From positions 1-64,000 of the forward strand of contig NZ_BMKR01000026.1 of NCBI RefSeq assembly GCF_014644435.1: a stretch of 64,000 nt of DNA, written 5' to 3'. Positions 1 through 19,091 of the stretch are shown piece by piece (within the stretch, counting starts at the first letter, position 1; every line of letters starts with the position of its first letter). The notes beneath the pieces were generated by a model that worked only from the letters and a program-made list of their open reading frames with translations, was not told where the DNA came from and ran no database searches. Origin of the DNA: Paenibacillus albidus (GTDB taxonomy: Bacteria > Bacillota > Bacilli > Paenibacillales > Paenibacillaceae). Made by a program: the position numbers and the translations under genes.

Positions 1-50
1 GTGTATCTGAAGTGGGTTAAAGTGTCCAAGTGGATAAGGGGGCTAAATAG

Positions 51-17440: not shown

Positions 17441-17474
17441 TAATAGAAGGGTTTCATTCTACTTCAAACCTAAA

Positions 17475-17524
17475 GAGGCTATTCCAGAAGCCACGATGTG
17501 GCGGCTTGGGATAGCCCTTTTTTT
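17475..17524 (+). terminator. terminator of the importer operon
   Basis: GGCTATTCC near 17477 pairs with GGGATAGCC ending at 17516 around an inner hairpin, followed by seven T. It lies directly before the second 51-bp array. Confidence 0.85.
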
Positions 17525-17544: not shown

Positions 17545-17971
17545 CCGCTTATCCTATGTCATTTTTGCCTTACATCCGGGTTTTTCCGCCTCAACTGCTC
17601 ATCCTAGGGCATTTTGTCCGAGCTTTTTCCGCCTCAGCCCCTCATCCTATGGCATTTTTGCCTTTCATCCGAGCCTTTTCCGCCTCAGCCGCTCATCCTA
17701 AGGCATTTTTGCCTTTCATCCGGGCTTTTTCAGCCTCAACTGCTCATCCTAAGGCATTTTTGCCTTTCATCCGGGCCTTTTCCGCCTCATCCGCTCATCC
17801 TAAGGCATTTTTGCCTTTCATCCGGGCTTTTTCAGCCTCAACTGCTCATCCTAAGGCATTTTTGCCTTTCATCCGGGCTTTTTCAGCCTCAACTGCTCAT
17901 CCTAAGGCATTTTTGCCTTTCATCCGAGCCTTTTCCGCCTCAGTCGCTCATCCTAAGGCATTTTTTGTGTT
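17545..17971. repeat. 51-bp tandem hairpin repeat array (array 2)
   Basis: Eight to nine units with the ATTTTTGCC landmark at 17561, a degenerate unit at 17611, then 17654, 17705, 17756, 17807, 17858, 17909 and a final broken unit at 17960. Spacing is 51 bp for all but the first two. Each intact unit has AAGGCA-TTTT-TGCCTT, the same core as array 1. The rest of the unit differs and comes in two variants, one with GGCTTTTTCAGCC and one with GAGCCTTTTCCGCCTC. The array fills the whole space between an operon terminator and the stop codon of the opposing hydrolase gene. The plus strand is open in two frames but has no start signal. Confidence 0.93.
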
Positions 17972-17972
17972 T

Positions 17973-19091
17973 TTATAGTATTTCATGGCGCCACCATGGC
18001 ATGATCGGGTAAGTCTCTCCCTTAATCCTAACGGTCTCGCCAATTTTTGGAGTGGAGATCGTGATGTGTTGCTCACTCCCCGCTCTCACAACGCGTTCAA
18101 TCGGATCTGTCCAATCATGCAAGGCCAAAGTGAAGGCGCCCCAATGAATGGGAATCATTACTTTGCCCCGTACATCCAGGTGAGCCTGGACGGTCTGCTC
18201 AGGGAACATGTGGATAGCTGCCCAGCGTTCATCGTATTGGCCACATTCCATTAAGGTTAGATCAAAGGGGCCATACTTCGCACCGATTTCCTGAAAATGA
18301 GGACCATAACCGCTGTCTCCGCTAAAAAACAAGTTGGCCGAATGTCCCTTTACGACCCATGAGCACCATAATGTCGCATCTCTGTCCGTCAGACTTCTTC
18401 CGGAGAAATGCCGCGCCGGCGTACAGGCCAGCCGGAGTCCTTCGCAGTCGAACTCATCCCACCAATCATGCTCTTCAATGTTAGCAGGGTCTACTCCCCA
18501 CCTGATCAGATGCCGGGACACGCCCAGCGGGACAATAAATCGTTTCACTTTGTCCTTCAGCCTCACAATGGAGCCGTAATCCAGATGATCATAGTGGTCA
18601 TGGGAGAGCAGCACCACATCGACAGGCGGCAGCTGCCCGATATCAAAGGGCAGCTTGCCGCTGTATCGCTTGCGGCTGAAGACCGGAAAAGGAGAGGGCG
18701 CTCTGCCAAACATCGGGTCAAGCAGCAGCGTTGTTCCGTCAAGCTGCAGCACTACAGCGGAATGACCGAGCCAGGCAAGCTTCGGCTGGGAATCTTGGTC
18801 CCAGGAATCTACGCGCAGCGGCTCCATCACAACCGGTTGGCTGGGCCGCGCGTGCGGATTTTTTCTCATGAAATCGACGAGCATTCCAACCTTCTCCCCC
18901 GTAGTCGTATCCATCGCTGTAGGGATCAGGTTGATAAATTTATTTTTGACAAAGTTCCTTGACTGGCTTAGCTGTCGCCTCTGTTCTCTAGTCTGACTGG
19001 CCCCGAGCGGAGGATAATATCTAAGTATGAGATAAACAATAACTGCTAATGAAATTATTACACAACTACCTGTGAGCATTCTCTTCTTCAA
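17973..19091 (-). CDS. metallo-beta-lactamase-fold hydrolase with N-terminal membrane anchor
   Basis: A 372-residue protein. Residues 7-24 form a membrane helix or uncleaved signal; the catalytic domain begins near residue 100. The metal motif is SHDHYDHLD (His164, His166, Asp168, His169), with further ligands in ARHFSG, FFSGDSGYG and PIHWGAF. The preceding WLGHSAVVLQLDG and LLLDPMFG are typical of the NAPE-phospholipase-D/UlaG-like branch. Members include phosphodiesterases and lactonases, so the substrate is uncertain. Its stop codon touches the 51-bp array. Confidence 0.87.
   Translation of the reverse strand: MKKRMLTGSCVIISLAVIVYLILRYYPPLGASQTREQRRQLSQSRNFVKNKFINLIPTAMDTTTGEKVGMLVDFMRKNPHARPSQPVVMEPLRVDSWDQDSQPKLAWLGHSAVVLQLDGTTLLLDPMFGRAPSPFPVFSRKRYSGKLPFDIGQLPPVDVVLLSHDHYDHLDYGSIVRLKDKVKRFIVPLGVSRHLIRWGVDPANIEEHDWWDEFDCEGLRLACTPARHFSGRSLTDRDATLWCSWVVKGHSANLFFSGDSGYGPHFQEIGAKYGPFDLTLMECGQYDERWAAIHMFPEQTVQAHLDVRGKVMIPIHWGAFTLALHDWTDPIERVVRAGSEQHITISTPKIGETVRIKGETYPIMPWWRHEIL

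Follow-up and report, generated by a model that had tools for sequence, protein, structure and literature searches.

Intergenic 51-bp tandem hairpin arrays in Paenibacillus with an orientation that follows replication

Introduction

Why should two tandem arrays in one stretch of bacterial DNA have the same unit length and the same hairpin core while the rest of the unit differs between them? Transposition or simple slippage is the usual explanation for repeats between genes, and an earlier note on this DNA had instead proposed independent arrays under selection for the hairpin and its spacing. Here we analyze the window, by which we mean the whole stretch of 64,000 nucleotides from Paenibacillus albidus (contig NZ_BMKR01000026.1), and follow its repeat through the genus and family. 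The strongest feature of the arrays is their orientation relative to replication, which is absent from the earlier note.

Two Arrays at Gene 3' Ends

The features of the window that concern us are as follows.

1 to 50, no strand assigned: end of a transposon-like element (no transposase identified) that adjoins the array 1 tetraloop
45 to 297, plus strand: array 1 (TRF 51-297, period 51), core as in array 2, linker different, left end cut within the hairpin loop
16175 to 17440, plus strand: solute-binding protein gene (PF01547), upstream of array 2
17471 to 17524, plus strand: terminator-like long stem-loop with a T run, read by eye
17545 to 17968, plus strand: array 2, about 8.3 units of 51 bp each, T-loop on the plus strand, opposite the G-rich (leading) strand
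17556 to 17571 (near 17560), plus strand: degenerate core of array 2 unit 1, sequence read directly
17605 to 17620, plus strand: core of array 2 unit 2, damaged by a deletion of about 8 bp, sequence read directly
17649 to 17664, plus strand: first regular hairpin core of array 2, ATGGCATTTTTGCCTT
17700, 17751, 17802, 17853, 17904 and 17955, plus strand: later cores of array 2 in 51-bp steps, that at 17955 broken
17973 to 19091, minus strand: metallo-beta-lactamase-fold hydrolase gene (PF12706), convergent on array 2

The basic description given in the earlier note, in which array 2 combines the 51-bp period and core of array 1 with another linker in two variants, was confirmed by TRF and by reading the units. 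TRF places array 2 at 17617-17965 (period 51, 6.8 copies, score 565), with an alternative 153-bp reading at 17545-17965. The core, AAGGCATTTTTGCCTT, is a 6-bp stem with a TTTT loop, and the two linker variants, of the GGGCTTTTTCAGCCTCAACTGC type and the GAGCCTTTTCCGCCTCAGCCGC type, are intermingled along the array. At its start the cores are spaced 50 and 43 bp apart, the second unit being about 8 bp short; regular units follow thereafter up to a truncated last core with its end near 17968.

The placement at gene 3' ends also holds, with array 2 lying about 5 bp from the end of the PF12706 hydrolase gene and array 1 stopping about 22 bp short of where a minus-strand ORF (319-996, without a Pfam match) has its 3' end. 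Array 2 does sit between a terminator and the opposing gene end as had been described, on the evidence of the stem-loop read by eye, which a simple terminator scan left unscored. The same scan made no call at the regular cores of array 2, its only two placements both falling at the damaged second unit. No match to the whole window was returned by Rfam at gathering cut-offs, nor to array 2 by blastn against plasmid and phage collections (one query each). Beside 29 homologues of the metallo-hydrolase in other genomes, no array was found in the next 900 bp; these proteins are only 53-61% identical and may not occupy orthologous places, so their empty flanks say little on the gain or loss of arrays.

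A Repeat Family of the Genus

Chance origin of the repeat can be excluded, since the 23-bp core occurs 133 times at three or fewer mismatches in G000, the genome that contains the window (7.67 Mb over 120 contigs), and the reversed pattern not at all. The exact 16-mer core is present in 12 of 100 genus genomes. A two-core pattern, GGSATTTTTSCC at 46-56 bp apart, was found in 29 of 394 family genomes, with no match for the reversed control; the carriers are 27 of the 100 Paenibacillus genomes and 2 of 294 other family genomes, one each in two other genera. It should be noted that 29/394 is a minimum, since the pattern covers only this type of stem, and that a contig scan with the bare 16-mer gave mostly chance single copies among the matches listed. 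Cores 51 bp apart are also contained in two Paenibacillus sp. DMB5 records.

The arrays are homologous members of one Paenibacillus intergenic repeat family and not independent inventions, because their consensuses have a degenerate extended motif in common; the "independent arrays" of the earlier note do not stand. Over all 51 bp, linker included, most units are 0.85-0.95 identical to the consensus of their array, and units at the ends of arrays show almost no extra degeneration (1.6 core mismatches vs 1.5 in inner units). One linker subfamily, with GCTCATCC before the core and a GGGCTTTTTCCGC-like stretch after it, is common to window array 2 and the loci L187, L196, L202 and L247. Such sharing among several arrays of G000 suggests, from sequence likeness, that an array may have spread to new sites within the genome.

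The largest fetched array, with 27 cores (L145 5816-7107, G087, at 430 kb), has core mismatches that tend to alternate between neighbors, as if two-unit blocks had been duplicated. A single core at L186 5897-5948 (G000) lies within a longer perfect palindrome (GGGCTTTGGAAGGCATTTTTGCCTTCCAAAGCCC-like) and is probably an ordinary terminator matched by chance.

A Fixed Period and Drifting Linkers

The unit length is held closely. In five genomes (G087, G059, G000, G008 and G063), where the distance from each GGNATTTTTNCC to the next neighbor within 120 bp was taken with no spacing assumed, 259 of 326 neighboring cores are exactly 51 bp apart, 29 are 52 bp and three are 50 bp apart; the remainder comprises 31 distances of two units (101-104 bp) and four others. 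Random spacing genome-wide, which would have made the shared period of the two window arrays a coincidence, is thus not what is seen. Further genomes gave 51 bp in 124 of 147 distances and 52 bp in 11, from loci fetched with the 46-56 bp pattern, so that only the five-genome set is free of selection. Other spacing histograms were made with detectors that join cores into chains only when these lie about 49-54 bp, or a multiple of that, apart (L192, L222 and L247 being called on both strands), and since these presuppose the result, the period rests on the count without assumed spacing.

Linkers of non-orthologous arrays are only 0.44 identical at this same period, which means that the length of the unit is kept and its sequence is not. 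We infer from these lengths that a unit of 51-52 bp spans about five helical turns of B-DNA (10.2-10.4 bp per turn x 5).

Covariation of the Hairpin Stem

Each core consists of a stem capped by a T-rich tetraloop. We assessed the pairing of this stem in 21 species (132 arrays), using a search pattern that put no constraint on the positions under test. The inner unconstrained pair is standard in 130/132 arrays, where 85 were expected and shuffles reached at most 98; for the next free pair the count is 109/132, against 75 expected and a shuffle maximum of 87. Smaller excesses occur at about five more pairs, with none farther out, beyond about eight pairs. For a 10-pair stem in 68 units, 77 cells were changed on both sides vs 29.6 in shuffles, which ignore relatedness, and sliding the register of the stem lowers the paired cells from 83% to 50% or less. 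The covariation is weak inside the first five genomes and becomes clear only across species.

Part of the stem (GG.A/T.CC) is conserved as sequence, beyond the need of a bare hairpin. At the two pairs outside GGN/NCC, the intermediates G-T (26) and A-C (31) are about equally frequent, which gives no sign of a preferred RNA strand. With DNA energy parameters, the T strand is the more stable in 34/106 unit consensuses and in 17/106 core 27-mers; polarity arising through better folding of the T-loop strand is unsupported by these values.

Orientation Relative to Replication

The T-loop lies nearly always opposite the leading strand, independent of gene direction. In the two single-contig genomes this was observed for 68 of 69 fetched arrays (29/29 in G087 and 39/40 in G059, one being a single core; p = 2.4e-19 with arrays treated as independent), which were those among the matches listed and were chosen regardless of strand. 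The T-loop strand flips from minus to plus around the GC-skew switch, at 3.72-3.80 Mb in G087 and 3.87-4.00 Mb in G059. Counted by copy, the polarity is met by 64/64 16-mers in G087 and, in G059, by 98 of the 100 13-mers listed out of 106, the exceptions being single 13-mers at 844300 (+) and 4090552 (-). When local GC skew served as the marker in 16 further genomes, 39/41 arrays followed with the plain pattern (p = 7.8e-10, arrays again treated as independent) and 37/39 with a stricter hairpin detector. The same marker gives 28/28 in G087, 38/40 in G059, 24/28 in G000 and 9/10 in G008/G063, and both window arrays obey the rule by it.

Gene direction cannot explain this orientation, since 27/28 arrays between convergent genes in G087 and G059 follow the replication polarity. 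It is also met by 3/3 arrays between co-directional genes running against replication, two of the three being orthologues, and after removal of orthologue pairs it remains at 53/54 loci overall and 22/23 convergent loci. Since it is replication, and not transcription, that the orientation tracks, the arrays must be acted on by something at the fork.

L222, the array against the rule in G059, is located at 4.09 Mb, shortly beyond the GC-skew switch, and its loop is ambiguous; L211 in the same genome meets the polarity by map position and not by local skew, which is near zero there. Arrays against the rule in G000 are L187, where regional skew is near zero, L192 and L247, with nearly symmetric loops, and L198, with two units; elsewhere they are L274 (G054), L302 (G077, of the 52-bp type) and L254 (G008/G063 set).

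Placement and Inheritance

The placement set comprised 111 arrays or single cores from five genomes; with 4 that overlap weak ORF calls and 9 at fragment ends excluded, 98 could be classified, 53 in co-directional, 41 in convergent and 4 in divergent gaps. The genes were called with a Markov model built for the analysis, and some short genes were missed. Array-free gaps of at least 100 bp (n = 527) were 325 co-directional, 49 convergent and 153 divergent, and by Fisher tests against these the arrays are enriched between convergent genes (p = 9e-14), as the earlier note had thought worth checking, and depleted between divergent ones (p = 4e-9).

Across 20 orthologous array pairs (some with a common member), linker identity was 0.74 vs 0.44 background, and copy number was equal in only 1/20 pairs, compared between species with one genome per species. 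The arrays are vertically inherited, with copy-number change between species, and as copy number differs in this way, amplification by slippage or unequal exchange has not been ruled out. With that correction, the suggestion of selection on hairpin and spacing in the earlier note is supported: stem covariation across 21 species, the period and the placement speak for it, and the refuting condition set there, random spacing and placement of the copies over the genome, was not fulfilled. Comparison of the array ends by eye revealed no common sequence.

An Element That Inserts at the Tetraloop

A further element is found at the center of the dyad, and its ends stop at the tetraloop in 8/8 ends seen (7 clear; L337 less clear and compatible). 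A search of the window's own genome with the 25-base element end listed six copies, each exactly 4 nt before the inner stem arm (TGCC or TCCC), of which five adjoin clear half-cores and L337 (GTTTTCCC) is compatible with this. The other end, sought only in fetched loci, was found in two copies, also at the tetraloop, one of them at the window start. In the linker-paired insertions C26/C70 and C49/C71, the 4-nt loop (TTTT and TTCC, respectively) stands on both sides, and this seems to be a target duplication of the loop. Copies lie at window positions 1-50 and on G000 contigs C1, C2, C16, C20, C49, C70 and C71 (L334-L339, L250); window array 1 and the array of contig C70 look like two halves of one interrupted array. 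That the element is a transposon is an inference, its transposase not having been identified.

What Might Maintain the Arrays

We read the arrays as vertically inherited intergenic tandem hairpin repeats with copy turnover, whose survival depends on their orientation relative to the fork, and we give this reading a probability of roughly 0.47, just short of even. In the orientation found, the T-loop hairpin matches the nascent lagging strand in sequence, with its A-loop complement on the lagging-strand template. The dyad may fold in single-stranded DNA at the fork, and misalignment of the like 51-bp units could then lead to the gain or loss of whole units. If gain exceeded loss in one orientation only, arrays of opposite polarity or with broken stems would vanish, the stem would stay paired and the linkers would drift, while selection against damage to genes and promoters would leave arrays mostly at gene 3' ends. 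Hairpin formation at the fork, slippage as the amplifier and orientation as what decides net gain are thus inferred.

Strand-specific folding at the fork is the most likely account in that it would cover the polarity, the upkeep of the stem, the turnover of copies and the lack of defined ends. Slippage alone does not predict a 51-52 bp period that is kept while linkers diverge, and the energy model gives no reason for the T-loop to be on the nascent lagging strand. Dozens of arrays per genome share a single period, a stem that covaries and an almost absolute orientation relative to the fork, whichever way the genes run, and this natural set makes it possible to test for strand-specific DNA hairpins at bacterial forks, and to ask whether these alone select the orientation of a repeat.

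Ranked second, and in our judgment unlikely without being negligible, is an array that presents phased binding sites to a host protein, as yet unidentified, which senses replication direction, for example in fork pausing, segregation or nucleoid organization, with about five helical turns setting the dyads on one face. Such an array would explain the period better than fork folding does, as it is kept at 51-52 bp across species despite diverging linkers, and it would suit both the replication polarity and a core that is dyad-symmetric and partly conserved in sequence. It explains worse the patchy distribution (27/100 genus genomes and 2/294 other family genomes by pattern), copy numbers are fluid, and the core is nearly symmetric apart from the loop, so that a dimer could hardly read polarity from it. 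Replication terminator protein (RTP) was considered as the partner and rejected, as it occurs in 99/100 genus genomes with or without arrays and does not track them; with no Rfam match in the window either, neither a bound protein nor an sRNA was found for the core, although the earlier note had suggested looking for one. A shade more doubtful still, and without binding data, is the fuller proposal that these genome-wide, replication-oriented and helically phased hairpin arrays let some unidentified host factor sense or steer the direction of forks, whether in polar pausing, in restart, in segregation or in the handling of the lagging strand; a polar chromosomal signal would then take the form of tandem arrays instead of short dispersed words. 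If a protein does read the arrays, a new polar chromosome signal awaits discovery.

It is improbable that the arrays arose because a single-strand transposase of the IS200/IS605 or RAYT type, or another mobile system, copied hairpins into the lagging-strand template. IS200/IS605 elements prefer the lagging strand, which would fit the polarity, and the linker subfamily common to several G000 arrays is suggestive of spread to new sites. Against this, Y1_Tnp (PF01797) has no match in the array carriers G059, G008, G063, G078 and G095, no common array ends were recognized by eye, and the units stand in direct tandem order and not in the paired inverted order of REPINs. A RAYT/IS200 origin is therefore unsupported, five carriers being without a match; PF01797 matches number six in G000 and two in G087, not typed as RAYT or IS200.

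About as weakly supported as a transposase product, and if anything slightly less likely, is a transcribed element in the form of a terminator, a 3' UTR stabilizer or a small RNA. The convergent enrichment, the divergent depletion and folding that is better than in shuffles all agree with it. However, either strand could be transcribed between convergent genes and the arrays there still follow replication in all but one case, the near-equal G-T and A-C intermediates prefer no RNA strand, and the window is without Rfam matches. Least credible of all is an origin as a by-product of the composition of the strands or the direction of the genes, or as a coding repeat of 17 codons. In its favor, the A-loop strand of the arrays is G- and A-rich, with GC skew averaging 0.09 to 0.18 in the genome sets, and 51 is divisible by 3. 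Against it, most regional values of GC skew lie between 0.04 and 0.12, the polarity holds between convergent genes and at L153 and L211, where most local genes run against replication, and a sister family has a period of 52 with mostly the same polarity.

Comparison With Known Repeats

REP/BIME sequences are perhaps the first comparison, as they too are palindromic, present in many copies and located between genes and away from promoters, and the test of being palindromic and intergenic is met by the arrays. IS1397 and ISKpn1 insert into the hairpin loops of REPs, much as a mobile element inserts into the loop of the arrays. The units of the arrays, in contrast, stand head to tail on one strand at a period of 51-52 bp and with one replication polarity, and a cognate Y1 (RAYT) transposase is not in every carrier. 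BIMEs alternate in orientation (PMC2817692). The arrays resemble REP/BIME and MIRU/VNTR repeats in kind and fail the REP tests of alternating orientation and of a cognate transposase in every carrier.

MIRU/VNTR minisatellites and the pneumococcal BOX are intergenic tandem units of about 50 bp with variable copy number. The arrays likewise have head-to-tail units that change in number between species, but they keep a covarying stem across species and an orientation set by replication; we know of no replication polarity for MIRU or BOX. Chi, KOPS and SpoIIIE recognition sequences are dispersed words of about 8 bases, and their biased orientation relative to the fork is matched by the arrays, which are instead phased tandem hairpins and were not found by pattern in 73/100 genus genomes. 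Variable tandem repeats of the same genus, with changing copy number, are known from Paenibacillus larvae, and their lengths include 19, 21, 24, 24, 68 and 48 bp, with none of 51 among these (PMC5072193). Unlike CRISPR, the arrays have no differing spacers, their units being alike through the linker; unlike an intrinsic terminator, the regular cores of array 2 escaped the scan and orientation follows replication and not the gene; and there is no curated match between the window and a structured RNA family of Rfam at gathering cut-offs. Neither 51-bp hairpin arrays of Paenibacillus nor tandem arrays oriented by replication were found described in the open-access literature searched, which mostly leaves out subscription papers.

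Additional Observations

The RTP gene (PF02334) is located at C1:3182033 in G087 and at C1:3327894 in G059, which is 0.5-0.7 Mb from the GC-skew switch. The sister family, with the core GGGATTTTTCCC and a period of 52, is about as abundant as the 51-bp family, with 119 copies in G087 and 103 in G059 (examples from these genomes are L151 3029-3470, L183 7151-7382 and L208 10751-10979). By a hand count in G059, with 100 of the 103 matches listed, 20/23 of its clusters of at least two follow the polarity. Another tandem family, unrelated to these and with units of 64-66 bp (AGTTTTGTACGAAG type), was encountered at L151 134-337, L208 7809-7956, L226 1113-1256, L234 2587-2723 and L260 7691-7901, and in the four places where the chromosome arm is known its strand, judged by eye, agrees with the arm.
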